64,000 bases of DNA from Gemmatirosa kalamazoonensis (GTDB lineage Bacteria > Gemmatimonadota > Gemmatimonadetes > Gemmatimonadales > Gemmatimonadaceae), in NCBI RefSeq assembly GCF_000522985.1, contig NZ_CP007128.1:310001-374000 (forward strand). Direction: 5' to 3'. This document shows, piece after piece, positions 42,000 through 62,434 of this stretch; within the stretch, counting starts at the first letter, position 1, and the number at the start of each line of letters is the position of its first letter. The notes under the pieces are model-generated. The model saw nothing but the letters and a program-made list of their open reading frames with translations. It did no database searches and was not told where the DNA came from. The translations under genes were made by a program, and so were the position numbers.

Positions 42000-42160
42000 G
42001 GTTCTGGAACGGCGGTTCTGATACGGCGGTTCTGATACGGCGGTTCTGATACGGCGGTTCTGATGCGGCGGGCTGCCGCTGCACGGGCCCCGCGGCCCCG
42101 CCGTCTCCGCCCCTCCCGCCGTGTCAGAACCGCCGTTCCAGAACCGCCCTTCCAGACCGG
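42000..42160 (+). terminator. Mirrored 14-base repeats (ATACGGCGGTTCTG family)
   Basis: About four to five tandem units ATACGGCGGTTCTG run from 42000 to 42072. Complementary, less regular units with CAGAACCGCCGT follow at 42120-42155, around a GC-rich centre that itself can fold. It lies between the PadR stop and the ADOP start. Related units occur at 53181-53312 and 59888-60015. Confidence 0.7.
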
Positions 42161-42194
42161 CCGTGAAGGAACCGCTTTCCCAGGCACGACACCC

Positions 42195-44840
42195 ATGCCT
42201 AACGACTCCCCGCGCCGCCTCTTCCGCCTCCCCTGGTCCCCGCGCCAGATCGACGACGACGTCGAGACCGAGGTCGCCTTCCACCTCGACGCACGCGTGC
42301 GCGAGCTGACGGCCGCCGGCGCGAGCGCTGACGCCGCCCGCGACCAGGCGGCGCGCGAGTTCGGCGACGTGCGCGCCGCGCGGGCCGAGCTCCGCGCGAT
42401 CGACCGTGCGCGCGTGCGCCGCGTGCGACTCGGCGACTGGTGGGACGGGCTGCGCCAGGACCTGCGCTTCGCCGCGCGCTCGCTCCGCCGCCGGCCGCTG
42501 TTCCTCGCCTCCGCCGTGCTCACGCTGGCGTTGGGCATCGGCGCGAACGCCGCGATCTTCAGCGTCGTCGACGGCGTGCTCCTGAAGCCCCTGCCCTACG
42601 CCGCGCCCGGCCGCCTCGTGCGCGTGTGGCCCACCGGCAAGGTGCCGTTAGGCATCTACGACCTCCTCGTCGCGCAGTCGCGGTCGTACCGCGGGCTCGC
42701 CGGCGCGGAGACGGGGCGCGAGGTCTCGGTCACCGACGAGGGGGAGCCGGCGCGGCTCGTCGTCTCGCTCGTCACGCCGAACGCGTTCGACGTCCTCGGC
42801 GTCAGGCCGGCGTTGGGCCGCGCGTTCGCGCCCGACGCGCGCGACCCCGGACGCGGGCACGCGGTGGTGCTCTCCGACGCGCTCTGGCGCACGCGCTACG
42901 GGAGCGACCCGCGCGTCGTCGGCCGCACGATCCGGCTCGACGGCGTCGCGCACACGGTGCTCGGCGTCATGCCGCGCGACTTCCGCTTCCCGAACGGCGA
43001 CGTCCAGCTGTGGTCCGTGCCGACCGCGACGCGCGCGTCGCCGGACTACTGGTGGGGCACGTACCTCGCGCTCGTCGGCCGCCTCGCGCCCGGCGTCACG
43101 CCCGCCCAGGCGCGCGCCGAAGCGAACGTGCTGCTCGACCGCGCGCGATCCGCGTTTCCCGTGCGCATGCCCGACGGCTGGGGACACGACGTCGACGTCG
43201 TGCCGCTGCGCGACGCGGTCGTCGGCTCGGCCCGACCGACGCTGCTCGTCCTGCTCGGCGCCGTGTCGCTCGTGCTGCTCGTGGCGTGCGTGAACGTCGC
43301 GACGCTGTACGCGGAGCGCGCCGCCGGCCGCACGCGCGAGATCGCGGTGCGCGCGTCGCTCGGCGCGGGACGGCGGCGCATCGCGAGGCAACTGCTCACG
43401 GAGAGCGTGCTCGTCGCGTCGTTGGGGGCCGCGGCGGGATTCGCGCTCGCCGCGCTCGCGGTGCGCGGGCTCGTCGCGCTGCTGCCGCCGGGCGTGCCGC
43501 GCGTCGAGGAGATCGGCATCGACCTCCGCGTGCTCGGCGTCACGGCCGCACTGGCGACGCTGAGCGGGCTCGCGTTCGGGCTGCTCCCGGCGCTGCGCGC
43601 GTCGCGGCAGGACGCGCAGGCGGCGCTGCGCGGCGGGGCGAGCGGTCACGCCGCGGCGGCGAGCGCGCCGCGGGCGCTCGTCGTCGCCCAGGTGGCGCTC
43701 GCCGTCGTCCTCGTGTCGTCGGCGGGGCTCCTGATGAAGAGCTTCTGGCGCCTGCGGCAGGTGGAGCTCGGCTTCCGCACCGAGCGCGTGCTCACCGCGA
43801 CGGTGCCGAACCCGATCGTCGCGTCGGACACGCTGGCGCGCGTGCGCGCGTTCTACGATGCGGCGCTCGAGCGCGTGCGCGCGGTGCCGGGCGTGCGCGC
43901 GGCGGCGTTCGCGAACGGGCTCCCGTTCGGTGGCGGCGCGTACTTCACCGCGATGGCCGTCGAGGACCACCCGACGCCGCCCGGCGTCGAGCCCCCGCTC
44001 CCCGTGGTGACGTGGTCCACCGGCGACTACCTGCAGGCGTTAGGCATCCCGCTCCTCCGCGGCCGGGCGCTCGCGCCGACGGACCGCGAGGGAACCCCGC
44101 GCGTCGGGCTCGTCGACGAGGAGGCCGCGCGCCGGTTCTGGCCCGGCGAGGATCCGATCGGACGCCGCGTTCGTTACGTGTGGGATCCGACGAGCTGGAT
44201 CACGATCGTCGGCGTCGTCGGCACGGTGCGCCGCGACAGCCTGAGCGCGGCGGCCGCGCCGTCGCTCTACGTGCCGATGCGCCAGGCGATCGCGCGGCCG
44301 ATGCGCCTCGTCGTGCGCGCGCAGGCGTCGACCGATCCGGCGACGCTCGCCCGCGCGCTGCGCGCCGCGGTGGCGTCGGTGGATCCGTCGGTGCCGGTCG
44401 GCGAGGTGACGACGCTCGACGACGTCGTGTCCGACTCCGCGGCGCGTCCGCGCTTCACCATGACGCTGCTCGCCGCGTTCGCGCTCGTCGCCGTGCTCCT
44501 TGGCGCCGTCGGGATCTACGGCGTCGTGGCGGCGGGGGTCGCGCGCCGCCGGCGCGAGATCGGTGTGCGTCTCGCGTTAGGCGCATCGGCCGGCCGCGTG
44601 CGCGGCATGGTGCTGCGCGAGGGCGGCACGCTCGCCGCGGCCGGCGTCGTCGCGGGGCTCGTCGGCGCGCTCGCCGCCGGTCGGCTGCTGCGCGGCCTGC
44701 TGTTCGGCGTCGCGCCGGCCGATCCGCTCGTGCTGCTCGCCGTGCCGGTGGTGCTCGCCGTCGTCGCCCTCGCGGCGACGGTCATTCCCGCGCGTCGCGC
44801 GGCGCGCGTGGAGCCGCTGGTGGTGATGCGCGACGCGTGA
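42195..44840 (+). CDS. ADOP-type ABC transporter permease (first)
   Basis: An 881-residue permease of the acidobacterial duplicated orphan permease group. A soluble N-terminal segment (1-75, [15 protein letters not shown], then [12 protein letters not shown]) is the prefix domain often found with PadR. Then come two copies of a MacB periplasmic core plus FtsX helices: helix [14 protein letters not shown], three helices around 345-440, a second core, and three helices at the end with [13 protein letters not shown]. No ATPase is encoded nearby, as is usual. ATG 42195 starts directly on the dispersed octamer (Met-Pro-Asn). Export of peptides or antibiotics is inferred from MacB. Confidence 0.92.
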
Positions 44841-44858
44841 CTCGGGGCGCCCGGCAGG

Positions 44859-44986
44859 GCTCCACGTACGTGTGTTCGTTGGACTGAAGAAGGACTGAAG
44901 GAGGACTGAAGAAGGACACTTGAAAGGTTCCTTCTTCAGACCTCCTTCAGTCCTTCTTTAGTCCTTCAGAAACTCGTACGTGGAGC
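44859..44986. repeat. Dispersed palindromic element, copy A
   Basis: Outer inverted repeat GCTCCACGTACG (44859-44870) with CGTACGTGGAGC (44975-44986), and inner 36-bp arms of GACTGAAGAAGGACTGAAGG type (44881-44916 with 44929-44964, two mismatches). It fills the gap between convergent genes and its last base is the first of the kinase stop codon triplet on this strand. A second copy in the opposite orientation is at 58866-58978. Confidence 0.85.
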
Positions 44987-46857
44987 TAGGCGAGCGGCAG
45001 CCGCAGCGTGAAGCACGACCCCTCGCCGACCGTGCTCTCGACGGTGAGGTCGCCACGCATGCCACGCGCGAGGTTGCGGCTGATCGCGAGCCCGAGCCCG
45101 ACGCCCTCCTGCGGCGAGAACGCGCGCGCCCCGATCTGCACGAACGGCTCGAACACGCTCTCCAGCCGGTTCGCGGGGATGCCGATCCCGGTGTCGCGCA
45201 CGCGCACGACGGCCGCGTCGCCGTCGACGCCCGACTCCAGCGTGATGCGGCCGCCCGCCGGCGTGAACTTGATGGCGTTCGTGAGCAGGTTCAGCACGAT
45301 CTGCTGCACCTTCTCGCGGTCCGCGTACACGTTCGTCGCGTCGGCCGCCGCGCCGACCTCGCACGTGAGCGCGCCCCCCTCCAGCAGCGGCTCGACCATG
45401 GCGCGCATCTCGGCGAGCAGCGACTCGAGCGGGAGCGATTCCGCATCGTACTCGATGCGGCCGCTCTCCACGCGCGCCAGGTTCAACACGTCATTCACGA
45501 GCGACAGCAGGTGCCGCTGGCTGCGCTGCACGCGGTCCAGCGCGTCGCGCTGCGCGTCGGTGAGCGGCCCGTGGATGCCGAGCTCCATGAGCTGCACGTG
45601 GCCGCCGATCGCGTTCAGCGGCGTGCGCAGCTCGTGGCTCATCATCGCGAGGAACGCGCTCTTCGCCTGACTGGCGCCCTCGGCCTCGCGCCGCAGCGCC
45701 TCGGCGCGCGCGAGCAGCGCCTCGCGCTCGGTCTCCGCGGCGTGCAGCTCGGTGACGTCGCGCGTGAAGCAGCGTGTGTACTGCAGCTCGCCGTCGCGCC
45801 AGAGGCAGTTCGAGTTGATCAGCACGTGGCGAATCTCGCCGTCCGGTCGGCGCAGGCGCGCGGCGCGGTTGTGCAGCGTCTCGCCGCGGCGGAGGCGCGC
45901 GAGGATGTCGGCGATGACGTGCGCGTCGGCGTGGAAGTCGTTGATCGACCGACCGAGGTACTGCTCGCGCGTGCAGCCCAGCAGCTCCAGCTCCGCGCGA
46001 TTCGCCCACAGGATCGTCCCGTCGGCGGCGACGAAGTGGATCCCCTCGGCGGCGTTCTCGAGGAAGTCCTTCAGCTCCTGCTCGCTCGCCCGCACGGCGG
46101 CCTCGGCCCGCTCGCGCGCCGCCAGCTCCGCACGGAGCTGGCGCTCGAGCCGCTCGCGGCGCGCCACCTCCGCTTCCAGCGCGGCGGCACGCTGCTGCAG
46201 GCGCGCGATCTCGCGCTGGCGCGCCGTCGCGTCGGCGTGCGGGTACGTCTCGGCCGGTACGACGTGGTCGTGCGCCGCGCACAGCTCGGCGAACGCCTCG
46301 GCCTGCGCGGCGTCGCCGAAGCGCGCCATGGCGTACGCGCAGAGCAGCGTGAAGTGGTGCGTCGACGCGAGCTCGTTCCACAGCGCCTCGAGCCGCAGCG
46401 CGCCGTGGACGTTCTCCTCGCCCCACAGCACGTCTACCATCTCGCCGTACGCACGGACGACGGCCCGAGGCCGTCCGTGGGCCAGGCGCGCGATCGCGGC
46501 ACCCACGACCTCGCGGAAGCGCGCCGGATCGGGGACGCCGCCCTCCATGAACGTGTCGAGCATCGCCTGCGCGTCGAGCAGCCGCAGGTCGCCGCGGCGC
46601 TGCAGCGCGTCGACGTCGTGGGTCGCGGCGAGCGCGCGCGTGATCGCCGCGCGGTGCGCTGCCGTGGCGATGATCAGCGCGGGCTCCCCGGCCGCCAGGC
46701 CGTCGCTCACGAAATCGCTCACCACCCGCGCGAGGAAGTCGTCGCGCTCGTAGAACTGCACGGCGTGCCGGTGGCCCGGCGCGTGCTCGTCGCGCCTGCG
46801 TACGAAACGCTCGGCGGGTTCGTGGGACGAACCCGACTCGATCGGCTGCATCGTCAT
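44986..46857 (-). CDS. MEDS-domain histidine kinase
   Basis: A 623-residue soluble sensor kinase starting at ATG 46857. Residues ~25-195 are a MEDS/DcmR-type sensory domain (HAVQFYERDDFLARVVSDFV, typical opening). A coiled-coil of Arg/Glu/Ala (200-260), a PAS domain (265-385) with CTREQYLGRSINDFH, and a kinase core follow: the His box MMSHELRTPLNAIGG, the N box VLNLLTNAIKFTPAGG, and GVGLGLAISRNL. MEDS domains are linked to one-carbon or hydrocarbon sensing, but the ligand here is unknown. No receiver domain is fused or adjacent. It sits between the two PadR-ADOP modules. Confidence 0.9.
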   Translation of the reverse strand: MTMQPIESGSSHEPAERFVRRRDEHAPGHRHAVQFYERDDFLARVVSDFVSDGLAAGEPALIIATAAHRAAITRALAATHDVDALQRRGDLRLLDAQAMLDTFMEGGVPDPARFREVVGAAIARLAHGRPRAVVRAYGEMVDVLWGEENVHGALRLEALWNELASTHHFTLLCAYAMARFGDAAQAEAFAELCAAHDHVVPAETYPHADATARQREIARLQQRAAALEAEVARRERLERQLRAELAARERAEAAVRASEQELKDFLENAAEGIHFVAADGTILWANRAELELLGCTREQYLGRSINDFHADAHVIADILARLRRGETLHNRAARLRRPDGEIRHVLINSNCLWRDGELQYTRCFTRDVTELHAAETEREALLARAEALRREAEGASQAKSAFLAMMSHELRTPLNAIGGHVQLMELGIHGPLTDAQRDALDRVQRSQRHLLSLVNDVLNLARVESGRIEYDAESLPLESLLAEMRAMVEPLLEGGALTCEVGAAADATNVYADREKVQQIVLNLLTNAIKFTPAGGRITLESGVDGDAAVVRVRDTGIGIPANRLESVFEPFVQIGARAFSPQEGVGLGLAISRNLARGMRGDLTVESTVGEGSCFTLRLPLA

Positions 46858-46934
46858 GCCTCGGCGCCTCCGCGGACCGGCCGAGTGGTGGCACACCGCT
46901 CCACTCCGTCCCCGCCCCTCCCGAAGGATAACAC

Positions 46935-46974
46935 ACGGGGCACGCCCCGTGCCGCCGACACGGCGCGGCACGGG
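46935..46974 (-). terminator. GC-rich hairpins after the second ADOP gene
   Basis: ACGGGGC (46935-46941) pairs with GCCCCGT (46944-46950), and alternatively CCCGTGCC (46946-46953) with GGCACGGG (46967-46974). They lie just beyond the stop at 46986 on the minus strand. Confidence 0.6.
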
Positions 46975-46985
46975 CCGAGGCTACC

Positions 46986-49718
46986 TCACTCGCCCTTGAG
47001 GCTCGTCGCCGGGTCGATCCGCGCGGCGCGATAGCCGGGCACGAGGCTCGCCGCGACCGCCGCGGCGACGAGCACCACGGCCACGACGCCGATCGTCGTC
47101 GGGTCGTGCGGCGAGACGCCGAACAACAGGGCGCCCATCGCGCGCCCTGCCGCGAGCGCGAGCGCCACGCCGGTCGCGACGCCCACCGCGGCGAACGCGA
47201 CCCCGCGTCGCACGACGAGCCGCAGCACGTCGCCGGCCCGCGCGCCTAACGCGAGCCGCACGCCGATGTCGCGGCGCCGCTGTGCGACGTCGTACGCGAG
47301 CACGCTGTAGAGGCCCACCACGGCGACGAGCAGGCCGAGCGCGCCGAACGCGGAGAACAGCGTGGCGCCCACCATCCACGGCCGCAGCTCGGGAGCGACG
47401 AGGTCCGCCATCGCGTGCACGCTCACGTATGCCGCGCCCGGCGCGAGCGGCTGCAGCGCCCGCTGCACGGCGAGCATCTGCTGCGCGGCATCGCCCCGCG
47501 TGCGGATCACGAGCCCGCTCATGTCGAACCACCGTGGGACCTCCGGGCGCGGCACGTAGAACCCCGGCACGCCGGGCTGCCGCGGATCGCCGCGCCGCAC
47601 GTCCGCCACCACGCCGATGATCGGTCGGCACGGTGCGGGGTCGTTCTCGGCCACGATCACGCACCGGCCCACCACGTCGTCGGTCCCGAACACGAGCTTC
47701 GCGAGCGCCGCGCTGAGCACCACCGCGTCGGTGTCCGCGGCCGGGGTACGCGGATCCCACACCCGGCCGCGCAGCACGCGCGTGCCCATCGCGCGGAAGT
47801 AGTCGAGCCCCACGGTGTTGCCGTGCACCTCCGCGTTCCCCGTCACCGAGTCGCGCCCCGGCACGCGCACGCGGTCGGTCGTGAACCCGCGGTAGTACGG
47901 CAGCTCGAACGTCGTGCCCACGGTCTCCACGTCGCGCAGCTCGCCGGCGCGCTCGGCCAGGCGCGCGTACAGCGTCGCGGTGCGCACGCTGTCGAGCCGC
48001 TCGCCGCGCAGCTGCACCGACGCGTACAGCACCCGCGCCGGCTCGAACCCGAAGTCGACGGCGTGCGCGTTGCGCAGCGATCGCACGAACAGCCCCGCGC
48101 CGACGAGCAGGACCGCCGACAGCGAGGCCTGCGCGAGCACGAGCGCCGCGCGCGTGCGGCCGTGACGCTCGCCGCCCTCGCGCGCACCGCCGCGCAGGCG
48201 GGTGACGAGGTCGGGGCGCAGCGCGCGCAGCGACGGCGCGAGCGACGCGAGCAGCCCGGCCGCCATCGCGATCGCCGCCGTCACGGCGAGCGTGCGCCCG
48301 TCGGCGAGCGCGTCGCCGAACGCGATGTCGGGGATCAGCACGCGCGTGACGAACGCGCCGCCCACGCGCGCGAGCAGCAGCCCCGCCACCGCGCCGAGCG
48401 CGGCGAGCAGCGCGACCTCGGTGAGCAGCTGCCGCGTGAGCCGCGCGCGCCCGACGCCGAGCGCCACGCGCACCGCCACCTCGCGCTCGCGTCCCACCGC
48501 GCGCGCGAGCAGCAGGTTCGCGACGTTCGCGCAGGCGACGAGCAGCACGATGAGCGCGACCCCCGCCACCCACACGGCCACGCGCGCGCCGTCCGTCGCC
48601 TTCGGGCCGCGGTCGAGCAGCACGGAGTACATCGCCGCCTTCGGCTGCAGCGACGCGAGCGGCACGTGCGCGATGCGGGCGGTCGGCTGCACCGCGATGC
48701 GCCGGCGCAGGCTCTCGACGTAGGCGCGCGTGAGCAGCGCGTTCGCCCGCGTCTCGCTCACGCCGGCGCGGCGCATCGCCACGAGCTCGAACCACGACAT
48801 GTTGTAGCGCGACGCGAACTCCGCCCCGATGGAGCTCGCCGAACCGGCGGTGAGCGGCACCCACACGTCGACGAGTCGCAGGCCGACGCCGGTGAAGCCC
48901 TTCGGCGCGACGCCGACGACGGTGAACGTGCCGCCGCCGACGCGCAGCGGGCGCCCGAGCACCGACGGATCGCCGCCGAGCTCGCGCCGCCAGTACTCGT
49001 AGCCGAGCACCGCGGCCGGCGCGCCCACCGGGAGCCGGTCGTCCTGCGGCCCGAAGAAGCGGCCTAACGCGGGCCGCGCGTCGAACAGCGACCACAGCTC
49101 GCCCGACGCCATGCCCACGTGCGCCGTGCGCGCCGACACACCGTCGCCGACGATCCCCTCCCCCGTCGACACGCCGACGACGTCCACGGCGCCGCGCGTC
49201 CCCTCGCGGATGTCCCGCAGGAACGCGTAGCCGACGTTGTCGTAGGTGTCCGTGGACCCGTCGAGCGTGCGGGTGAAGAAGATGCGTCCCGTGCGCCCCG
49301 CGTCGCGCAGGTACGCGGGCGGCCGCAGCAGCAGCCGGTCGACGATGCCGAACATCATCGCGTTCGCGCCGATGCCCAGCGCGAGCGTGACCACCACCAC
49401 GGCCGCGAAGCCGGGCGAGCGGCGGAGCGTGCGGGCGCCGAGTCGCACGTCGCTCGCGAGCCCCTGCAGCCACTCCGTCGACCGCCGTGCGCGGTCGTGC
49501 CGTTCGTCGATGCGCCGGAGCTCGGCGCGCCGCGCATCGACGTCGCCGAAGCGGCGCCGCGCCTCGTCCCGCGCCGCCTGCGGCGACAGGCCGCGGCGCT
49601 CGAGCTCCGCTGCCGTCATCTCGAAGTGGAACGCCAGCTCGGCGTCGACGTCGCGGGCCACGTCGGTGCGCCGCGTCGCGAGGCGGAAGAAGCGGCGCAG
49701 TCCTGGGATGTTAGGCAT
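46986..49718 (-). CDS. ADOP-type ABC transporter permease (second)
   Basis: A 910-residue ADOP permease. It begins MPNIPGLRRFFRLATRR with the prefix domain (DVDAELAFHFE, then RDEARRRFGDV), followed by two MacB-core/FtsX halves: first helix [15 protein letters not shown], the middle helices around 380-480 with EVALLAALGAVAG, and a terminal set with [13 protein letters not shown] and RIDPATSLKGE. It is a close paralogue of the gene at 49911-52625: same start, same prefix and near-identical upstream leader (from ATGAGGCTCGTGGGG). A tandem duplication is the simplest reading. Transport substrate is unknown. Confidence 0.92.
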   Translation of the reverse strand: MPNIPGLRRFFRLATRRTDVARDVDAELAFHFEMTAAELERRGLSPQAARDEARRRFGDVDARRAELRRIDERHDRARRSTEWLQGLASDVRLGARTLRRSPGFAAVVVVTLALGIGANAMMFGIVDRLLLRPPAYLRDAGRTGRIFFTRTLDGSTDTYDNVGYAFLRDIREGTRGAVDVVGVSTGEGIVGDGVSARTAHVGMASGELWSLFDARPALGRFFGPQDDRLPVGAPAAVLGYEYWRRELGGDPSVLGRPLRVGGGTFTVVGVAPKGFTGVGLRLVDVWVPLTAGSASSIGAEFASRYNMSWFELVAMRRAGVSETRANALLTRAYVESLRRRIAVQPTARIAHVPLASLQPKAAMYSVLLDRGPKATDGARVAVWVAGVALIVLLVACANVANLLLARAVGREREVAVRVALGVGRARLTRQLLTEVALLAALGAVAGLLLARVGGAFVTRVLIPDIAFGDALADGRTLAVTAAIAMAAGLLASLAPSLRALRPDLVTRLRGGAREGGERHGRTRAALVLAQASLSAVLLVGAGLFVRSLRNAHAVDFGFEPARVLYASVQLRGERLDSVRTATLYARLAERAGELRDVETVGTTFELPYYRGFTTDRVRVPGRDSVTGNAEVHGNTVGLDYFRAMGTRVLRGRVWDPRTPAADTDAVVLSAALAKLVFGTDDVVGRCVIVAENDPAPCRPIIGVVADVRRGDPRQPGVPGFYVPRPEVPRWFDMSGLVIRTRGDAAQQMLAVQRALQPLAPGAAYVSVHAMADLVAPELRPWMVGATLFSAFGALGLLVAVVGLYSVLAYDVAQRRRDIGVRLALGARAGDVLRLVVRRGVAFAAVGVATGVALALAAGRAMGALLFGVSPHDPTTIGVVAVVLVAAAVAASLVPGYRAARIDPATSLKGE

Positions 49719-49740
49719 GAGGCTCGTGGGGTTCGGGCGC

Positions 49741-49905
49741 CGCGCACGGCGCGGGCGATACTGCGCGGGCGATACGGCGCGATGGGGCGCAGACGACGCT
49801 CACACCGCTGAACCGCGCGGTACAGCGCAGTGCCGCGGTGTGAGACGGGGTTTGCGCTTCACAGCGCACCATCGTCAGCGCCGTATCGCCCGCGCCGCCA
49901 CCAGC
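49741..49905 (-). terminator. Complex inverted repeat between ADOP genes
   Basis: CGGCGCGGGCGATA (49747-49760) pairs with 49884-49897, and CACACCGC (49801-49808) with 49835-49842. The 60-base right part, 49838-49897, is the near-exact inverse of 52653-52712 next to the PadR gene. It lies 3' of the third ADOP gene. Confidence 0.7.
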
Positions 49906-49910
49906 GCCGT

Positions 49911-52625
49911 TCATTCGGCCCTCAAGGCGGTGTTGGGATCGACCCGCGCCGCCCGCCAGCCGGGAACGAGACTCGCCAGCAGCGCGACGGCGCCGAGCAC
50001 CCCCACGACGCCGAGCAACGTGAGCGGATCGTGCGGCGTGACGCCGAACAGCAGGTTCGCGACGGCGCGCCCCGCGACGAGCGCGAGACCGAGACCGAGC
50101 GTCAGCCCGCCGAGCGCGACGCCGAGCCCGCGGCGCAGCACGAGCCGCAGGACGTCACCGCGCAGCGCGCCTAACGCGAGACGGATCCCGTAGTCGTGCC
50201 GGCGCTGCGCGACGTCGTGGGCGAGCGCGCCGTACAGCCCGAGCGACGCGACGAGCAGGCCCAGCACCCCGAACGCGCCGAACAGCGTCGCTCCGGTCTC
50301 CCACGGGCGCAGCGCCGACGCCGTGTCCTCGTCGAGCGAGCTCACCGCGAGGTATGCCGGCGATGGCAGCAGCGGGACGAGCGCGCGGCGCAGCGTCTGC
50401 GCCTCCGCCCGTGCCGGGCCACGCGTGCGCACCACGATCGCGCCGATCCCGCTCCCCTCCGTCGGCGCGGCGGGACGATAGACCGACGGCTCGAGCGGAT
50501 CGCGCGGGTCGGCCGCGCGCACGTCCTCCACGACGCCGATCACCTCACGGCAGGTCGGGTCGGGGCCGACGACGAGGCAGCGGCCTAACGGGCTCGCCGT
50601 CGGCCACACGGCGCGCGCGAGCCGCTCGCTCACCACGATCGTCGCCGCGTCGCGCGCCACGGCGTGCCGATCGAACGCGCGGCCGCGCACGAGGCGCGTG
50701 CCGACGGCGCGGAAGTAGTCGCCGCCGACGACGTTGTCGCGCACGCCGTGGTCGCCGAGCTCCACGCGATCGCCGTTCGCGAGGCGCACGTCGCGCGCCC
50801 GCCGGCCCAGGTGGAACGCGAGCGCGGTCCCAACCTCCTCCACCGCCGGCAGCGTCCGGGCCCGCTCGGCGAGCCGCTCGTACAGCGCCGCGCGCGCCGC
50901 CGAGTCGAGCGGCACGTCGCGCAGCTCCACCCACGCGTACAGCACGTGCGGCGGATCGACGCCGAGTCGCACCGCGCGGGCCTTCTGCAGCGAGCGCACG
51001 AACAGCCCCGCGCCGACGAGCAGCAGCACCGACAGCGCCGCCTGCGCCACCACGAGCGCGCCGCGCAGCCGGCCGTGGCGCGCGCCGGTGCCTCCCTCGC
51101 GCGCACCACCGCGCAGCCGCCGCACGAGCGTGGGACGCAGGGCGTGCAGCGCCGGCGCGAGCGACGCGACGAGCGTGCTCCCCAGCGCGATCGCGCCCGT
51201 GACGGCGAGCGTGCGCGCATCGACCGGCGCGCCCTGCCACACGCTGCCCGTCGGACGGACGCCGCCGAATCCGGTGCTCGGCACGAGCGCGCGCGCGACG
51301 AGCAGGCGGCCCACCCACGCGAGCGCCAGCGCCGCGGCGGCACCGAGCGCCGCGAGCAGCGACGCCTCCACGACGAGCTGCTTCACGAGCCGCCCGCCGC
51401 TCACGCCGAGCGCGAGGCGCACCGCCGTCTCCCGCTCGCGCTGCAGCGCGCGCACGAGCAGCAGGTTCACGACGTTCGCGCACGCGACGATCAGCACGAT
51501 CACCGCCACGCCCGTCGCCCACAGCGTCACGCGCACGCTGTCGCTCGCGCGCGGCCCGCGCTCGCCGGCGACCGGGTACAGCGCCGCGCGCACGGTCGAC
51601 GCGGTGCCGGTGGTGTCGTGGCGTGCCGCGCTCGCGCGCAGGGCGGCGGTGAGCCGCGCGTCGGCCACCACCGCGCTCACGCCGGGGCGGCGGCGGGCGA
51701 CGGCGGTGAACCAGTCGCGGTCGTAGGCCGTCGCGAACGTCGGCCCGAGCGCGTCGGCGGCCCCCGCGGTGAGCGGCACCCACACGTCGACCGGTCGCAG
51801 GCCGAGGCCCGTGAACCCCGGCGCGGCGACGCCGACGACGGTGAAGCGGTGGTCGCCGACGTAGAGCTGCCGGCCGATCACCGCGGAGTCGGCGCCGAGC
51901 TCACGCCAGTAGTCGTGGCCGAGGACGGCGACGCGCGTACCGTTAGGCAGTCGGTCCTCGGCGTCGACGAACGGACGCCCGGGCGTGGGGCGCATGTCGA
52001 ACAGTCCCCAGAAGCTCGCGCTCGCGAGCCCGATCTGGGCCAGCCGCGCCCCCTCCCCCTCGCCCACGGGCGCCGTGTACGTCGTGACCGCGGCGACGTC
52101 GAGCGCGCCCGCGGTGGCCTCGCGCAGGTCGCGGAACGCGGGATAGCTCACGTCCGCGGTCGGCTCCGCGCCCGGACGGGTGACGAACACGCGCCCGGTG
52201 CGCTCGACGTCGCGCAGGTGGGCCGGCGGCCGCAGGAGCAGCCGGTCGATCACGCCGAACATCATCGCGTTCGCGCCCACGCCGAGCGCCAGGGTGAGCA
52301 CGATCGCCGCCGTCAGGCCGGGAGCGCGGCGGAGCGTGCGCGCGGCGAGCCGCACGTCGTGTCCGAGATCCTGCGCGCGCTCGACGAGACGGCGTCCGCG
52401 GTCGCGGCGCGCGTCGATGTCGTGGAGCCGGCGCCGTGTCGCCTGCAGGTCGCCGAAGCGCCGCTCCGCCTCGGCCCGCGCGGCGGCGGGCGCGACGCCG
52501 CGGGCCACGCGATCGGCGACGGCGCGCTCGAAGTGGAACGCGAGCTCGGCGTCGATGTCCTCGTCGATCGACGCGCGGCGCGTGGCGAGGCGGAAGACGC
52601 GGCGCAACCCTGGGATGTTAGGCAT
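49911..52625 (-). CDS. ADOP-type ABC transporter permease (third)
   Basis: A 904-residue ADOP permease, paralogue of the previous one. It starts MPNIPGLRRVFRLATRR, has prefix pieces DIDAELAFHFE and RAEAERRFGDL, and the same two MacB-core/FtsX halves: helix LTLALGVGANAMMFG, central LLVRALQRERETAVRLALGV, and terminal RRHDYGIRLALGA and RVDPNTALRAE. It is the first permease behind the PadR gene at 52786-53121, so it is the likely direct target. A hairpin separates it from the second ADOP gene. Confidence 0.92.
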   Translation of the reverse strand: MPNIPGLRRVFRLATRRASIDEDIDAELAFHFERAVADRVARGVAPAAARAEAERRFGDLQATRRRLHDIDARRDRGRRLVERAQDLGHDVRLAARTLRRAPGLTAAIVLTLALGVGANAMMFGVIDRLLLRPPAHLRDVERTGRVFVTRPGAEPTADVSYPAFRDLREATAGALDVAAVTTYTAPVGEGEGARLAQIGLASASFWGLFDMRPTPGRPFVDAEDRLPNGTRVAVLGHDYWRELGADSAVIGRQLYVGDHRFTVVGVAAPGFTGLGLRPVDVWVPLTAGAADALGPTFATAYDRDWFTAVARRRPGVSAVVADARLTAALRASAARHDTTGTASTVRAALYPVAGERGPRASDSVRVTLWATGVAVIVLIVACANVVNLLLVRALQRERETAVRLALGVSGGRLVKQLVVEASLLAALGAAAALALAWVGRLLVARALVPSTGFGGVRPTGSVWQGAPVDARTLAVTGAIALGSTLVASLAPALHALRPTLVRRLRGGAREGGTGARHGRLRGALVVAQAALSVLLLVGAGLFVRSLQKARAVRLGVDPPHVLYAWVELRDVPLDSAARAALYERLAERARTLPAVEEVGTALAFHLGRRARDVRLANGDRVELGDHGVRDNVVGGDYFRAVGTRLVRGRAFDRHAVARDAATIVVSERLARAVWPTASPLGRCLVVGPDPTCREVIGVVEDVRAADPRDPLEPSVYRPAAPTEGSGIGAIVVRTRGPARAEAQTLRRALVPLLPSPAYLAVSSLDEDTASALRPWETGATLFGAFGVLGLLVASLGLYGALAHDVAQRRHDYGIRLALGALRGDVLRLVLRRGLGVALGGLTLGLGLALVAGRAVANLLFGVTPHDPLTLLGVVGVLGAVALLASLVPGWRAARVDPNTALRAE

Positions 52626-52652
52626 GAGGCTCGTGGGGTGCGGGCGCCGGGA

Positions 52653-52780
52653 CGGCGCGGGCGATACGGCGCTGACGATGGTGCGCTGTGAAGCGCAAAC
52701 GGCGTCTCACACCGCTGAACGGCGCCGTACCGCGCGGTTCGAGCGCGGCGGGCGAAGCGCCGTCGACGCCGCTCATTCTC
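52653..52780 (-). terminator. Inverted-repeat region after the second PadR gene
   Basis: The first 60 bases (52653-52712) are an inverted copy of 49838-49897 with about two mismatches. Further CGGCGCC/GGCGCCG pairs follow. It occupies the gap between the PadR stop and the third ADOP start. Confidence 0.65.
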
Positions 52781-52785
52781 TGGTC

Positions 52786-53121
52786 TCAGGCGGTCTGCAG
52801 CACCTTGAACACGGCTTCGGCATAGCGCGTCCACCGCTGCGTCTGCGCGCGCAGCGCGCTGCGGCCGGCGGTCGTGAGCTGGTAGTACTTCGCGCGGCGG
52901 TTGTTCTCGGAGAGCCCCCACTCGCTCTCCACGAGCCCGCGCTGCTCGAGCCGGTGGAGCGCGGTGTACAGCGCTCCCTCGTCGACGCTCAGCGCGTCGT
53001 CGGTGGTCTCGGCGATCCAGCGCGAGACGGCGTAGCCGTGGCGCGGGCCCCACGAGAGGGTCTTCAGCACGAGCACGTCGAGCGTGCCCTTCAGGAGATC
53101 GAGGTCCGGCACGGGCGGCAT
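52786..53121 (-). CDS. PadR-family transcriptional regulator (second)
   Basis: A 111-residue PadR regulator, the same length as the one at 41644. It reads DLDLLKGTLDVLVLKTL, RHGYAVSRWIAETTDDAL, ALYTALHRLEQRGLVE and SEWGLSENNRRAKYYQLT, ending RYAEAVFKVLQTA. Only scattered positions differ from the first PadR, so they are recent paralogues with different operators. It heads the two ADOP genes on the minus strand. Two matching 17-base palindromes in its promoter suggest negative autoregulation. Confidence 0.93.
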   Translation of the reverse strand: MPPVPDLDLLKGTLDVLVLKTLSWGPRHGYAVSRWIAETTDDALSVDEGALYTALHRLEQRGLVESEWGLSENNRRAKYYQLTTAGRSALRAQTQRWTRYAEAVFKVLQTA

Positions 53122-53129
53122 TGGGAGTC

Positions 53130-53177
53130 CCCTCAGAATTTGAGGGCGAATATGCACCCCTCTGAGTTTGAGGGCAA
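53130..53177 (-). promoter_or_regulatory. PadR promoter with two palindromic operators
   Basis: CCCTCAGAATTTGAGGG (53130-53146) and CCCTCTGAGTTTGAGGG (53158-53174) are two copies of one operator, 28 bases apart. On the minus strand a promoter reads TTGCCC (53172-53177), 17 bases, CATATT (53149-53154). One operator covers the -35/spacer and the other the likely transcript start. The first begins 9 bases before the start codon. Confidence 0.75.
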
Positions 53178-53180
53178 GAC

Positions 53181-53312
53181 CTGATGCGGCGGCGCTGGAA
53201 CGGCGGCGCTGGAACCCCGGCGCTGATAACCCGGCGCTGAACACGCGCGGTATCAGCGCCGCCGTATCAGCGCCGAGGCATCAGCGCCGCCGTATCAGCG
53301 CCGCTGCATCAG
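53181..53312 (-). terminator. Mirrored 14-base repeats after the RND gene
   Basis: Units of the CGGCGCTGATACGG family run over the whole stretch. The outer arms 53181-53206 and 53287-53312 match over 26 bases with about three mismatches; the distal arm overlaps the RND stop at 53309-53311. It separates the RND gene from the PadR promoter. Confidence 0.75.
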
Positions 53313-56300
53313 TCTCCAGCCGGCTCCGCGGCCGGAGTCGCCACCCCGTGCGGTGCCGGTGCTCGACGCCGCAGTTTGGCGCCGAGGTAGGAGCGCCAGC
53401 CGTCGAAGATCTCGTACACCGTCGGGATCACGAACAGCGTCAGCAGCGTCGACGTGATCACGCCGCCGATCACCGCGCGGCCTAACGGCGCGCGGAAGTC
53501 CGCGCCCTCGCCGAGGCCGAGCGCGACCGGGATCATGCCGGCGATCAGCGCGAGCGTCGTCATGAGGATCGGCCGCAGCCGGATCGCGCCCGCCTCGATC
53601 AGCGCGTCGCGCAGCGGCACCGCGCTCTGCTCGCGCGTCCACTTCGCGAAATCGATGAGCAGGATCGCGTTCTTCGCCACGATGCCCATGAGCAGGATGA
53701 TGCCGATGAGACTCATGATGTTCAGCGTGTCGCGCGTCACGAGCAGCGCGAGCACGACGCCGATGAGCGACAGCGGCAGCGACATGAGGATCGCGAGCGG
53801 ATCCAGGAAGCTGCCGAACTGGATGACGAGGATCAGGTACATCAGCATCACGGCGATCAGCATCGCGATGCCGAAGCTCGAGAAGATCTCGCCCTGGCTC
53901 TTCACCTGGCCGCCGGGCACGATCTGGTAGCCCGCCGGCAGGTGCACGTCGCGCAGCGCGCGCTGCACGCCCTGCGTCACCGCGCCGAGCGGCCGCTCGA
54001 TGTTCGCGCCGATGACGACGACGCGCTGCCGCTGGTAGTGGTCGATCTGCGCCGGCCCCGCGCTCGGCGCGATGTCCGCCACCTGGCCTAACGGAACGAC
54101 GGCGGGCGCCCCGCCGGGGCCGCCGGCGCCGGGCAGCGCGAGCGGGATCCGCGCGAGGTCGGCCGCGTTCTCGCGCGAGCCCGCCGGGAGCCTGACGCGG
54201 ACGTAGCGCGTCTCGCCGCTCGGGTCCACCCAGTTCCCGGCGTCGACGCCGGCGAACGCGGGGCGCAGCGCCTGCGCGATCTGCCCGACGCTCACGCCGA
54301 GCGTGCCGGCGAGTCCGCGGTTGATCGTCACGCGCAGCTCGGGCTTCTGTCCCTTCGTCGACAGGCCGACGTCGACGGCGCCCGGCACGCTGCGCACCTT
54401 CCGCGCGATCGAGTCGGCGAGCGTGGTCAGCGTGCGCGCGTCGGGACCCTGGAGCTGGAGCTGGAACGGCTTCTGTCCGCCGCCCGGACCGCCCGCCTCG
54501 AGGAGGTACGCGTTCGCGCTCGCGAACCGCCGCAGCTCCTGCCGCAGCACGCGGCCGAACGCCGACTGCTTCAGGTCGCGCTGCGCCTTCGGCACGAGCC
54601 GCACGTAGATCGACCCCACGTCCACGGCGCCGGACCCGCTCGCGCTGCCCACGGTGGCGTACGTGTACGCGACCTCCTTGTGCGTGCGGATCCGCGCCGC
54701 GATCTGCTCGGTCTGCACGCGCGTGTACTCGAGGCTCGACCCCGGCGGCGCCTCCACCGTGACCGTGAGCTCGCTGCGGTCGCTGTCCGGCGTGAAGCCG
54801 AAGCCACCGAAGCGCACTTGGATGAACAGCGCGCCGAAGAACGTGAGCGCGGCGAGCGCCATCATCGTCCACCGGTGGTCGAGCGCCCACGCGACGCCCG
54901 ACCGGTAGCGGTTCGCCTGCCGGTCGAACCAGCGGTTGAACCGGTCGAGCGCGCGCGCGATCGGGTTGCGCCGCTCGTGCGCCTCGATCTGCGGGTCGGC
55001 CCAGTACGCCGAGAGCATCGGGTCGAGCGAGAACGACACGAACAGCGACACGAGCACGGCGAACGCGATGGTGAGCGCGAACGGCTTGAACCACTGCCCC
55101 GCGAAGCCGCTCATGAAGCCGACCGGCACGAACACCGCCACGATCGAGAACGTCGTCGCCGCGACGGCGAGCCCGATCTCGTCGGTGCCCTCGTGCGACG
55201 CGGTGAGATGGTCTTTCCCCATCTCCACGTGCCGGACGATGTTCTCGCGCACCACGATCGCGTCGTCGATCAGGATGCCGATGGCGAGCGAGAGGCCCAA
55301 CAGCGACATCGAGTTCAGCGTGAAGCCGAGCAGCCAGAGCGGCACGAACGACGCGAGCACGCTCACCGGCAGCGCGAGCCCCGTGATCACCGTCGAGCGC
55401 CACGAGTTCAGGAACAGGAACACGACGAGCACGGTGAGCAGCGCGCCCTCGAACAGCGTCTTCTCCACGTCCTCCACCGAGCGGTCGACGCGCTCGCCGG
55501 CGTCGCGCACGATCTCGATCGTCGTTCCCGCCGGCAGCGCCTTCCGCAGCGCCGGGAGTCGCTGTTTCACGCCGTCGGCCACCTGCGTCGTGCTGTAGCC
55601 CTTCGACTTCACGATGTCGATGCCGATCGCCTCACGGCCGTTGTAGAGCGCCGCCGAGCGCCGCTCCGCGGCTCCCGCCTCGACCGTCGCGACCTGGCCT
55701 AACGGGATCGCGACGCCGCCCCGCTGCGCGACGGTGAGGCGCGCGAAGTCCTCCGGCCGCTCCAGCCGTCCCTCGAGGCGGATCGACCGCTCGGTGATCG
55801 GCCCCGTCACCGAGCCCACCGGCGCGGCGAGGTTCTGCGACCGGAGCGCGTTCACCACCTGGTCGACGCCGACGCCGGTGGCCGAGAGCCGGTTCGGATC
55901 GAGGATCACGTTCAGCGTCGCGGAGTCGGCGCCGGCGATGTTCACCTGCGCGACGCCGGGGACCGCGCGCAGCTCGCCGCCGATCGTCTTGTCGGCGATC
56001 TCGGTGAGCTGCGGCGGCGTGAGCGTCGTCGACGTCAGCGCGAGCGACACGATCGGCTGCTGCGACGGGTCGAAGCGCTGGACGATCGGCTCGATGATCT
56101 CCTGCGGGAGCTGCGCGCGCACGGCGGAGATCGCGTCGCGCACGTCCTGCGTCGCCTCGTCGGTCGGCTTGTCGAACTTGAAGATGATGATGATCTGCGC
56201 GAACCCGTCGGTCGACGTCGAGCGCAGCTCGTCGAGACCGCTGATGCCGGCGATGCGGTCCTCGAGTCGGTCGACGACCTCGCGCTCCACCTGCTCGGGG

Positions 56301-56464
56301 GAGGCGCCCGGGTACGCGATGCCGACGAAGACGATCGGCGCGTCGATGTCGGGAAACTCGTCCGTCTGCAGCCGGCGCAGCGCGGCCAGGCCGAACACGA
56401 CGAGCGCGAGCATCACGACGACCGTGATGATCGGCCGTCGGATGGCGAAATCGGAGATGTACAT
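53309..56464 (-). CDS. HAE1-family RND efflux permease (AcrB-like)
   Basis: A 1051-residue RND pump. It starts at ATG 56464 with the usual FAIRRPIITVVVMLALVVFG first helix. Long periplasmic loops flank helices 1-2 and 7-8, and helices 4-6 contain SLAIGILIDDAIVVRENI, the conserved DD-containing proton-relay segment. The second half ends LRPILMTTLALIAGMIPVALG and a final VIPTVYEI. It exports drugs or lipophiles using proton motive force. No membrane-fusion or TolC-like partner lies on either side, so those must be encoded elsewhere. A long frame upstream of the ATG is shadow. Confidence 0.95.
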   Translation of the reverse strand: MYISDFAIRRPIITVVVMLALVVFGLAALRRLQTDEFPDIDAPIVFVGIAYPGASPEQVEREVVDRLEDRIAGISGLDELRSTSTDGFAQIIIIFKFDKPTDEATQDVRDAISAVRAQLPQEIIEPIVQRFDPSQQPIVSLALTSTTLTPPQLTEIADKTIGGELRAVPGVAQVNIAGADSATLNVILDPNRLSATGVGVDQVVNALRSQNLAAPVGSVTGPITERSIRLEGRLERPEDFARLTVAQRGGVAIPLGQVATVEAGAAERRSAALYNGREAIGIDIVKSKGYSTTQVADGVKQRLPALRKALPAGTTIEIVRDAGERVDRSVEDVEKTLFEGALLTVLVVFLFLNSWRSTVITGLALPVSVLASFVPLWLLGFTLNSMSLLGLSLAIGILIDDAIVVRENIVRHVEMGKDHLTASHEGTDEIGLAVAATTFSIVAVFVPVGFMSGFAGQWFKPFALTIAFAVLVSLFVSFSLDPMLSAYWADPQIEAHERRNPIARALDRFNRWFDRQANRYRSGVAWALDHRWTMMALAALTFFGALFIQVRFGGFGFTPDSDRSELTVTVEAPPGSSLEYTRVQTEQIAARIRTHKEVAYTYATVGSASGSGAVDVGSIYVRLVPKAQRDLKQSAFGRVLRQELRRFASANAYLLEAGGPGGGQKPFQLQLQGPDARTLTTLADSIARKVRSVPGAVDVGLSTKGQKPELRVTINRGLAGTLGVSVGQIAQALRPAFAGVDAGNWVDPSGETRYVRVRLPAGSRENAADLARIPLALPGAGGPGGAPAVVPLGQVADIAPSAGPAQIDHYQRQRVVVIGANIERPLGAVTQGVQRALRDVHLPAGYQIVPGGQVKSQGEIFSSFGIAMLIAVMLMYLILVIQFGSFLDPLAILMSLPLSLIGVVLALLVTRDTLNIMSLIGIILLMGIVAKNAILLIDFAKWTREQSAVPLRDALIEAGAIRLRPILMTTLALIAGMIPVALGLGEGADFRAPLGRAVIGGVITSTLLTLFVIPTVYEIFDGWRSYLGAKLRRRAPAPHGVATPAAEPAGD

Positions 56465-56596
56465 GCGGTGAAATCTGTCGCGGGAGCCGTGCCGGAGGCG
56501 ACTGCTACCTGTCACACGCGCGTGTGGATGGCGTCGTTGCGCCGACGTCCGGGCGGACGTAGCGTAGCGCGCCGCTCCCCTCCTCCCCGCCCCGCC

Positions 56597-57184
56597 ATGT
56601 CCCCAGACGAGCTCACCCGACGCCGCTTCCTCGGCGCGGTCGCCGGCGGTGCCGCGGCGCTGTGGCTCACCGCGCTCGACGCCCCGCCCGCTGCGGCCGA
56701 GCCTAACGCAACGGACACCGAGACCTATCGCGGCGAGCGGCTCGCGACGCTCACCGCGAGCCAGGCCGCGGACCTCGACGCGTTCGCGGCGCAGATCGTC
56801 CCCTCGGAGCCCGACGGACTCGGCGCGCGCGAGGCGGGCTCGGTGTTCTTCATCGACCGCGGGCTCGCGACGTTCGCGAAGGAGCAGCGCCCGCTGTTCA
56901 CGAAGGGGCTGGGCGAGCTGCGCGATGCGGCCGCGGCGCGCGGCGGGCGCTCGTTCGCCGCGCTGCCGGCCGCCGGACAGCTCGCGGTGCTGAGCGCGAT
57001 GGAGGAGGCGAAGTCGGAGTTCTTCGGCGCCGCGCGCGCTGCCGTCGTCGCCGGTCTGCTCGCGGACCCGAAGCACGGCGGCAACCGCGGCCGCGTGGGC
57101 TGGCGGCTCATCGGCTTCGAGAACCGCTTCCACTGGATGGCGCCGTTCGGCTGGTACGACGGGAGGACCACCGATGCCGACTGA
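56597..57184 (+). CDS. Tat-exported small subunit of a GMC dehydrogenase
   Basis: A 195-residue protein of the gluconate 2-dehydrogenase subunit 3 family. A Tat motif RRRFLGAV is followed by a hydrophobic AALWLTALDAPPAAA. The body shows LDAFAAQIVPSE and a final GWRLIGFENRFHWMAPFGW. The small subunit carries the folded flavoprotein subunit through the Tat system. It overlaps the GMC gene by 11 bases, supporting a heterodimer. Confidence 0.88.
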   Translation: MSPDELTRRRFLGAVAGGAAALWLTALDAPPAAAEPNATDTETYRGERLATLTASQAADLDAFAAQIVPSEPDGLGAREAGSVFFIDRGLATFAKEQRPLFTKGLGELRDAAAARGGRSFAALPAAGQLAVLSAMEEAKSEFFGAARAAVVAGLLADPKHGGNRGRVGWRLIGFENRFHWMAPFGWYDGRTTDAD

Positions 57185-58850
57185 GCGTGCGTCCCGACCC
57201 CGCGGCCCCCGGTACGCCGACGCCGACGCGGTCGACTTCGTGGTCGTCGGCTCGGGCGCGGCGGGCGGCGTGGTGGCGCGCGAGCTCTCGCGCGCCGGGC
57301 TGCGCGTCGTCGTGCTCGAGCAGGGGCCATATCTCACCGAGGCCGACTTCACGCACGACGAGCTCACGGTCATGCAGGGCAATGCGCTGACGAACGACGT
57401 CGCGCGCTCGCCGCAGACCGGCCGCCGCACCGCCGCCGACACGGCGACGCCGCGCAAGCTGCTCGTCTACGGCCGCGCGGTCGGCGGCGGGACGCTGCAC
57501 TTCACGGCGAACTTCTGGCGCTTTCACGAGATCGATTTCGTGGAGCGGTCGCAGAAGGGCCCCATCGCCGGCACGAGCTTCGACGACTGGCCGATCCGCT
57601 ACGCCGACCTCGAGCCGTACTACACGAAGGTCGAGTGGGAGGTCGGCGTCTCGGGCCAGGCCGGCGCGAGCCCGTTCGACCCGCCGCGCAGCCGCCCGTA
57701 TCCGATGCCGCCGCTGCCGAACCAGTCGCCCGGCGTGCTGCTCGAGCGCGCGGCGCGCAAGGTGGGATGGCACGCGTTCCCGGCGCCGCTGGCCATCGCG
57801 TCGGTGCCGTATCGCGGGCGCAGCGCGTGTCAGCACTGCGGCTTCTGCGAGTTCTTCGGCTGCGAGTTCGGCGCGAAGTCGAGCACGCTGGCGACGATGA
57901 TCCGCGAGGCCGAGCGCACCGGCACGTGCGAGATTCGGCCGAACAGCTACGCGCATCGCGTGGAGCACGACGCGCGCGGCCGCGTGACGGGCGTCGTGTA
58001 CTTCGACCGCGAGAAGCGCGAGCGCGTGCAGCGGGCGAAAGCGGTGGTGCTGTGCGCGAACGGCGGCGAGACGCCGCGGCTGCTGCTCATGTCGGCGTCG
58101 ACGCTGTTCCCGCACGGGCTCGCGAACTCCAGCGGGATGGTCGGGCGGAACCTCATGTTCAACGGCGCCGGCATCGGCGTCGGCGTGTTCGAGCATCCGG
58201 TGAACGGCTACCGCGGCGTCGCCGTGACGCGCGTCGTCCACGACACCTACGAGCTGGATCCGAAGCTCGGCCTGCACGGGGGCGGCGGCTTCGACTTCCG
58301 CTTCGACACGCCGCCGGTGATGTACGCGTTAGGCAGCCTCGATCCCGAGGCACCGACGTGGGGCGCCGACTTCAAGCGGCGGCTGCGCGAGTTTCCGCGC
58401 ACCGTGTACGCGTTCGGGCACACGACGTCGCTCCCCGTGCCGACGAACGACATCACGCTCGACCCGACGGCGAAGGACGCGTGGGGGCAGCCGGCGATCC
58501 GCGTGACGTTCCGCGAGCACGCCGAGGACCTCAAGCTGTATCACTGGTTCCGGGATCGCGCCGTGGATCTGCTCGACGCGGCCGGCGCGCAGCGGCGGTG
58601 GTCGTTCCCGATCGCCGACTTCCCCGACTACGCGAACCCCCACCTGCTCGGCACCTGCCGCATGGGAAACGATCCGGGCCACTCGGTGGTGAACGCGTGG
58701 CACCGCGCGCACGACGTGCCGAACCTGTTCATCGTCGACGGCTCGTCGTTCGTGACGAGCGGGCGCGGGCAGCCGACGATGACGATCATGGCGCTCGCGT
58801 TCCGCGCGGCCGACGGGATGATCCGGGCCGCGCGGCGCAACGAGATCTAG
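57174..58850 (+). CDS. GMC-family FAD oxidoreductase (sugar/alcohol dehydrogenase)
   Basis: A 558-residue flavoprotein. The FAD Rossmann motif is VVVGSGAAGGVVARELSRAG. A cysteine-rich CQHCGFCEFFGCEFGAK lies at about 218-236, as in gluconate/fructose dehydrogenase-like GMC enzymes. The C-terminal GMC signature is LFIVDGSSFVTSGRGQPTMT, with a likely catalytic His in NAWHRAHDVPN and an Asn/His pair nearby. A cytochrome c third subunit, common in this class, is not adjacent. It would oxidise a sugar or sugar acid at the periplasmic side. Confidence 0.9.
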   Translation: MPTERASRPRGPRYADADAVDFVVVGSGAAGGVVARELSRAGLRVVVLEQGPYLTEADFTHDELTVMQGNALTNDVARSPQTGRRTAADTATPRKLLVYGRAVGGGTLHFTANFWRFHEIDFVERSQKGPIAGTSFDDWPIRYADLEPYYTKVEWEVGVSGQAGASPFDPPRSRPYPMPPLPNQSPGVLLERAARKVGWHAFPAPLAIASVPYRGRSACQHCGFCEFFGCEFGAKSSTLATMIREAERTGTCEIRPNSYAHRVEHDARGRVTGVVYFDREKRERVQRAKAVVLCANGGETPRLLLMSASTLFPHGLANSSGMVGRNLMFNGAGIGVGVFEHPVNGYRGVAVTRVVHDTYELDPKLGLHGGGGFDFRFDTPPVMYALGSLDPEAPTWGADFKRRLREFPRTVYAFGHTTSLPVPTNDITLDPTAKDAWGQPAIRVTFREHAEDLKLYHWFRDRAVDLLDAAGAQRRWSFPIADFPDYANPHLLGTCRMGNDPGHSVVNAWHRAHDVPNLFIVDGSSFVTSGRGQPTMTIMALAFRAADGMIRAARRNEI

Positions 58851-58865
58851 TCGCGCCTATCCGGA

Positions 58866-58978
58866 CTCCACGTACGAGTTTCTGTAGGACTGAAGAAGGA
58901 CTGAAGGAGGACTGAAGAAGGACCAACAACAGTCCCTCTTCAGTCCTTCTTCAGTCCAACGAAAACACGTACGTGGAG
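58866..58978. repeat. Dispersed palindromic element, copy B
   Basis: CTCCACGTACG (58866-58876) pairs with CGTACGTGGAG (58968-58978), and GACTGAAGAAGGACTGAAGG arms lie inside. Reverse-complemented, it aligns with 44859-44986 nearly base for base at both ends, including the AGTTTCTG and TTCGTTGG flanks inside the terminal repeats. It starts 15 bases after the GMC stop. Confidence 0.85.
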
Positions 58979-59887: not shown

Positions 59888-60015
59888 GGAACGGCGGCGC
59901 TGATACCTCGGCGCTGTCGAGGCGGCGCTGAAACGGCGGCGCTGGAACCGCGCGCTTTCAGAGCCGCTGTTCCAGCGCCGCCGTTTCAGCGCCGAGGTAT
60001 CAGCGCCGCCGTTCC
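59888..60015. terminator. 29-bp perfect hairpin of 14-base repeats
   Basis: Arms 59888-59916 and 59987-60015 are perfect complements (GGAACGGCGGCGCTGATACC start), and a 25-bp inner set (59924-59948 with 59969-59993) continues the stem. It stands exactly between two convergent stop codons (59885 and 60021), so it can end both transcripts. Confidence 0.88.
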
Positions 60016-62392: not shown

Positions 62393-62434
62393 CGGGATTC
62401 GGGACTCGGGACTCGGGACTCGGGACTCGGGACT
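62393..62434 (-). repeat. CGGGACT array upstream of the kinase gene
   Basis: One degenerate and five exact 7-base units lie 10 bases before the kinase start. Together with the complementary array at 62527-62589 they enclose a 92-base gap that must hold the kinase promoter. Confidence 0.85.

Follow-up and report, generated by a model that had tools for sequence, protein, structure and literature searches.

The window analysed here, a stretch of 64,000 nucleotides from Gemmatirosa kalamazoonensis (bases 310001-374000 of a 5.31-Mb contig in a genome of 7.48 Mb and four contigs), carries two copies of a palindromic, non-coding element, each located behind a stop codon. The published genome of strain KBS708 comprises replicons of 5,312, 1,106, 1,041, and 21 kb with a GC content of 72.6% (PMC3974934). 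Both copies belong to a dispersed family of about 100 long imperfect palindromes, a number estimated from 213 terminal repeats, of which 98 paired copies were read. With moderate confidence, we regard this lineage-specific family as a past non-autonomous mobile repeat that is now kept as a bidirectional hairpin at gene ends.

Two copies of a palindromic element

The genes and element parts at the two places are listed below in order of position.

42063..44840, + strand: MacB/FtsX-type permease gene, upstream of copy 1 (Pfam MacB_PCD and FtsX; start possibly as late as 42195)
44844..44859, + strand: degenerate outer motif before the left end of copy 1 (profile of 196 ends; family consensus about GNCGCGCCNKKCANGR)
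44860..44985, no strand: copy 1, palindromic element between terminal repeats, 126 bp
44860..44870, + strand: CTCCACGTACG terminal inverted repeat, left end of copy 1
44881..44917, + strand: left arm of copy 1, three 11-bp units (GGACTGAAG plus 2), direct repeats at 11-bp spacing
44929..44967, - strand: right arm of copy 1, inverted 11-bp units (inverted repeats I2-I5)
44975..44985, - strand: CTCCACGTACG terminal inverted repeat, right end of copy 1
44986..46971, - strand: MEDS/PAS histidine kinase gene, convergent, right of copy 1 (Pfam; start uncertain)
57174..58850, + strand: GMC oxidoreductase gene, upstream of copy 2 (Pfam)
58851..58865, + strand: degenerate outer motif TCGCGCCTATCCGGA, immediately 3' of the TAG stop, before copy 2
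58866..58978, no strand: copy 2, palindromic element between terminal repeats, 113 bp
58866..58876, + strand: CTCCACGTACG terminal inverted repeat, left end of copy 2
58886..58923, + strand: left arm of copy 2, three 11-bp units
58930..58957, - strand: right arm of copy 2, about two inverted 11-bp units
58968..58978, - strand: CTCCACGTACG terminal inverted repeat, right end of copy 2
59064..59885, + strand: DUF4097-domain gene, downstream of copy 2 (Pfam; 85 nt after copy 2)

Read inward, the two copies share one layout: the terminal repeat CTCCACGTACG, matched exactly at each of the four ends, then a brief variable stretch, arms in which GGACTGAAG recurs every 11 bp, and a short centre that differs in sequence between them. 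Folded as single-stranded DNA, copy 1 reaches -55.3 kcal/mol (z = -14.3) and copy 2 reaches -43.7 kcal/mol (z = -10.6). Copy 1 starts 19 nt past the TGA of the permease gene and is abutted on its right (0 nt) by the TAG of the histidine kinase gene, while copy 2 begins 15 nt past the TAG of the oxidoreductase gene. Rfam covariance models at the gathering score returned no match in the window or at ten further loci, and a known structured RNA family was rejected on this basis.

A first-pass annotation, made from the letters alone, had described these two spacers as copies of one element with shared terminal repeats and GACTGAAG inner arms, both directly behind a stop codon and lacking clean target duplications. 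This description holds, the arms being present as three 11-bp units on the left side of either copy and the missing duplications extending to the entire family; the leading G assigned to the terminal repeat varies and is an A at the left end of copy 2. The opposite orientation claimed for the copies is visible in the base after the terminal repeat (T-left/A-right in one, A-left/T-right in the other). As a label it means little, because the element is near-palindromic, the centres differ, and orientation markers are unlinked across the family. The 11-bp units of the arms, the degenerate outer ends, the anchoring to stop codons, and the other hairpin families described below had been overlooked.

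Family anatomy and conservation

A genome search for the ends, as the annotation had proposed, recovered further copies: exact CTCCACGTACG occurs 213 times in the 7.48-Mb genome, against six matches to the same pattern reversed. Family statistics rest on 98 paired copies (196 ends), read from loci picked through exact end matches; they lie at 98 different places, with copies on all three large replicons. An 11-bp unit (GGACTGAAG plus two bases) is repeated in tandem to form each arm, with three units per arm (3+3) in 60 of the 98 copies and 3+2, 2+3, 4+3, or other combinations in the remainder. Including the terminal repeats, copies measure 43-149 bp, most commonly 124-139, and the short forms of 62, 73, 84, and 95 bp show that sizes tend to rise by about 11 bp, in a series that runs to 148 bp and matches the number of units. 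Most copies span about 130-170 bp once the degenerate outer motifs are counted. At two unit-less places (G000:C2:1217369-1217384 and 1705065-1705080), both ends are fused (CTCCACGTACGTGGAG).

The conserved block at each end is CANGRCTCCACGTACGWGT, with A or G about equally frequent at position -1 across the 196 ends. Beyond this block, each side continues outward to about -16 with a degenerate GNCGCGCC-like motif; it is present whether or not the side faces a stop and is therefore part of the element or of a target preference. The variable bases of the left and right outer motifs do not covary, and the joined flanks form no unusual inverted repeat (single best score 13, against 9 in random pairs), so the outer flank was rejected as half of a pre-existing hairpin.

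Conservation is uneven along the element. The terminal repeats are conserved at 96-100% and unit positions mostly above 95% (84-100%), compared with 40-70% at nearby positions. No two copies are close to identical: nearest-neighbour identity has a median of 84% and a maximum of 0.90. Unit arrays lacking an intact pair of ends were found only four times in the 1.13 Mb covered by both the unit-array search and the structural inverted-repeat scan, and the constraint is therefore not merely an artefact of how copies were picked. Taken together, the pattern points to copies that are probably old, under position-specific constraint in place, or homogenised between copies.

Position relative to genes

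Among the 91 copies that lie clear of gene calls, 35 separate convergent genes, 48 tandem genes, and 8 divergent genes, whereas all junctions number 153, 594, and 150, respectively. Convergent junctions are thus enriched (Fisher P = 2e-7) and divergent ones depleted (P = 0.04). At 113 gene ends, the terminal repeat lies most often 14-22 nt behind the stop codon, which frequently places the start of the outer motif at the stop itself. Of 52 copies in tandem gaps, 51 sit closer to the upstream gene's stop than to the start of the downstream gene.

Despite this placement and a stable hairpin, the canonical intrinsic terminator was rejected as a description of the element, since a T4 run follows the hairpin at none of the 196 ends. 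In 20 kb of the window, terminator-like sites with a U-tract numbered 2, compared with 3.4 expected by chance.

Distribution across genomes

BLAST gave no match in 58 other genomes of the same family and order. Exact end-plus-unit or three-unit patterns were absent from 84,980 species genomes, and the end-plus-unit pattern from IMG/VR, two collections from which near relatives of this genome may have been left out. The family is therefore taken to have spread within this lineage; its species restriction is apparent, as judged from these searches, and it may serve as a strain marker, because no match to it turned up in any other genome searched. When flanking gene pairs were sought in the sampled DNA of relatives to locate empty orthologous sites, only one had nearby matches, and these overlap and leave no site to read.

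Within the genome, no copy among those listed falls in the approximately 1.07 Mb of G000:C2 between 3.02 and 4.09 Mb. In the sampled block C2:3.3-3.7 Mb of this interval, genes are biased 241 to 105 between the strands, and there are 25 other hairpins, mostly of families with 7-8-bp units.

Mobility and rival explanations

The rival that survives best, although we still consider it unlikely, is a purely selfish miniature inverted-repeat transposable element (MITE), that is, non-autonomous copies of an insertion sequence (IS) that are tolerated in intergenic space only and have no host function. Terminal inverted repeats, the lack of coding capacity, high copy number, apparent restriction to one species, and presence on all three large replicons agree with such an element. 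Target-site duplications do not: at offsets of 0-25 bp and lengths of 2-9, they show no excess over shuffled partners, although a MITE derived from a duplication-free IS would lack them too. No transposase is encoded between the closest copy pairs checked, where the predicted proteins are an ABC transporter, a MacB/FtsX permease, HIT, zincin, dehydrogenase, HNH, and PD-(D/E)XK proteins. Young, near-identical copies are missing, and well-conserved ends beside variable positions are not what neutral decay would leave. Tolerance alone also fails to explain why copies in tandem gaps are anchored to the upstream stop.

An autonomous parent was likewise sought. The unpaired ends listed, which are part of the 213, resemble chance matches in coding sequence, truncated or slightly mutated copies, or the two unit-less palindromes, and neither they nor the intervals between the closest copy pairs contain a candidate. 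One such interval (L130:11205-11648) holds a PD-(D/E)XK_3 protein gene as the only gene between two copies. Of the non-autonomous element or REP/BIME-like unit (repetitive extragenic palindrome, REP; bacterial interspersed mosaic element, BIME) envisaged in the first-pass annotation, the repeated, palindromic, non-coding character with inverted ends and about 100 copies stands. No support emerges for a MITE with a living parent, given the missing target duplication and the lack of a transposase between the closest copy pairs; a MITE-like status is possible.

A second alternative, which we hold to be quite improbable, is an array of protein-binding sites, in which GGACTGAAG at 11-bp spacing and the near-palindromic ends (CACGTACGTG) would recruit a DNA-binding or nucoid protein and the hairpin would be incidental. 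It draws on the fact that conservation is highest in the unit cores and ends, that 11-bp spacing sets the units on about one face of the helix, and that variable arm positions show little pairing compensation. Against it, the units nearly always form two inverted arrays, and other families at gene ends have units of 7, 8, 9, 14, and 15 bp, which makes one common phased reader unlikely.

A REP/BIME family mobilised by a REP-associated tyrosine transposase (RAYT) of the IS200/IS605-like Y1 type is very improbable: like REPs, the element is an extragenic palindrome located close to gene ends and at convergent junctions (PMC3733652), but the transposase check suggested in the annotation found no Y1_Tnp (PF01797) match in the genome, with controls positive in 5 of 14 genomes, the aligned ends read CTCCACGTACG without a GTAG or CGTC tag, and the element is 3-5 times longer than REPs of 20-40 bp.

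A proposed former mobile repeat retained as a gene-end hairpin

The favoured explanation, a past mobile repeat now kept at gene ends, combines two processes. The palindromes would have spread formerly as a non-autonomous repeat moved by some enzyme, and the copies would now be retained as gene-end structures. Behind a stop codon, the transcript of either neighbour could fold into a long hairpin; since this is possible from either strand, one symmetrical copy can serve two convergent genes. The hairpin may act as a transcription end that dispenses with a U-tract, as a block to read-through, or as a shield for the mRNA 3' end. The 11-bp units, about one helical turn each, build the arms, and slippage may alter their number. 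Dispersal, structure, the near ladder of sizes, stop-codon anchoring, convergent enrichment, the missing U-tract, and uneven conservation are observed. Past mobility and selection in place are inferred, as is the most likely function, a terminator or 3'-end role.

Several points weigh against this explanation. There are seven copies that overlap called genes and eight at divergent junctions; the gene calls themselves come from a custom codon-usage script (90% coding) rather than a curated annotation, and their starts are rough. The gene-end position can also result from loss of insertions elsewhere. Pairing in the arms is loosely maintained: compensation at variable-position pairs is weak in spacer 1 (41 of 60 versus 32 expected) and absent in spacer 2 (21 versus 25), and the subterminal 8 nt are less complementary than random pairs (3.14 matches versus 3.83, sd 0.13), so exact pairing is not strictly kept. 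This subterminal non-complementarity could stem from selection in favour of an internal loop, or from inversions acting on an asymmetric ancestor, and the unlinked orientation markers in phase tests across the family are compatible with both origins. Moreover, the family is absent from the sampled 400-kb block at C2:3.3-3.7 Mb, where other hairpin families occur.

If the gene-end role is true, many transcripts of this GC-rich genome end in repeated hairpins and not in U-tract terminators, and one location has been reached independently by several unrelated repeat families. The acquisition or exchange of bacterial transcript ends through the spread of repeats would then become directly testable.

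Other hairpin families and repeats

The structural scan of 1.13 Mb recovered 214 inverted repeats, of which 92 were assigned by later classification to the present family (A). The others were grouped into roughly a dozen families, in which most arms consist of short tandem repeats with 7-15 bp units. They lie at 67 tandem, 35 convergent, and 8 divergent junctions and so display the same gene-end bias. As controls, 500 kb of random sequence with the same trinucleotide make-up gave no inverted repeat, and samples of 400 kb from two relatives yielded 6 and 16, respectively, which show little tandem structure. B-type arrays are present in two other relatives and several C-type arrays in one; in the pieces fetched, some of these arrays fold into hairpins close to gene ends. 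A CCAAC...GTTGG apex is present in 62 of 92 family A hairpins, 16 of 34 in family B, and 3 of 7 in family L, compared with 7% of random windows. Families C-F have no such apex and carry locus-specific loops on shared arms; the arms, and not a whole mobile unit, may therefore be what spreads. A broader reading, which we consider unlikely, is that lineage-specific families of gene-end hairpins with 7-15 bp units, placed immediately behind stop codons, turn over within the Gemmatimonadaceae and provide bidirectional transcript ends, free of U-tracts, in place of ordinary terminators.

Several of these hairpins are found in the window. Family B hairpins with CGCAGAGGACGCAGAGGGCCGCAGAGG arms occupy tandem intergenic gaps at 23235-23312, 31851-31939, and 35907-36064, and also occur in relatives G013 and G033. 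Gene-end hairpins with 14-bp tandem units, of the GGCGGTTCTGATAC and GGCGGCGCTGGAAC types, lie at 42003-42156, 53181-53312, and 59888-60015. Inverted arrays of the 7-bp unit GGGACTC, with a different loop at each locus, were seen at 62393-62586 as well as at L096:14561-14650 and L044:1663-1771; matches to two adjacent GGGACTC units number 589 in the genome, and an uninterrupted run of about 25 units lies at G000:C2:139849-140023.

Further repeats were recorded alongside. The octamer CGTTAGGC is over-represented about 20-fold (718 in 1.13 Mb versus 36 by base composition; e.g., L034:1624 and L039:7148), mostly in frame within genes (NCG TTA GGC) and often as a TAG stop (53 cases). It is nearly as frequent in relative G030, absent from 400 kb of G021, and possibly a recombination, uptake, or similar signal. 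A repeat with ACCTTGGGCGAAGGGGGGGGAGCCCCCC was recorded at 13 loci (L034:2772, L049:3890, L063:6565, and L074:6050 among them), often beside tandem arrays around GATCGTCCCGCCGTG; it may correspond to the 90-bp class reported in PMC11237797. The Gemmatimonadota genome G030 also contains a repeated hairpin, GTCATCCTGAGCGCAGCGAAGGATC (e.g., L189:17283 and L181:13140).

Comparison with known systems

MITE-like palindromes of the ERIC, Correia/NEMIS, and YPAL types are imperfect, non-coding sequences of 100-170 bp with inverted ends and internal size variants. The present family resembles them in all these respects, but differs in its missing target duplication, size steps of about 11 bp, strict anchoring to gene ends, and unrelated sequence. 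It resembles an intrinsic terminator in offering a stable hairpin shortly after a stop codon, where one palindrome could serve convergent genes; a far longer stem, the lack of a U-tract, and a dispersed repeat sequence set it apart.

REPs are palindromes of 20-40 bp that bear a GTAG or CGTC tag on one end; most lie between convergent or codirectional genes, and they are often fewer than 20 bp away from a gene 3' end (PMC3733652). The present family shares the general traits of a dispersed extragenic palindrome at convergent or tandem junctions and close to gene 3' ends, and gene-end placement as such is not new, because REPs share it. Length (about 130-170 bp), tandem-unit arms, the missing tag, and a genome without a Y1 transposase distinguish the two.

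The closest precedent is a 2024 report in mBio, whose relevant passages count 90- and 150-bp repeats on the G. kalamazoonensis chromosome at about 11 per 100 kb (471 in total), with a lower density in a strand-biased region (PMC11237797). The same paper assigns the 150-bp repeats to strain Gma. bact. 138 as well (PMC11237797), a strain that may or may not be among the 58 genomes searched here. Those counts very probably include the present family in the class of about 150 bp. In these passages they come without repeat sequence, structure, or gene context, and the anatomy is given here. What is new, therefore, is this anatomy with its near 11-bp ladder of sizes, as well as the tie to stop codons, a distribution apparently restricted to one species, and the broader group of hairpin families to which the element belongs.

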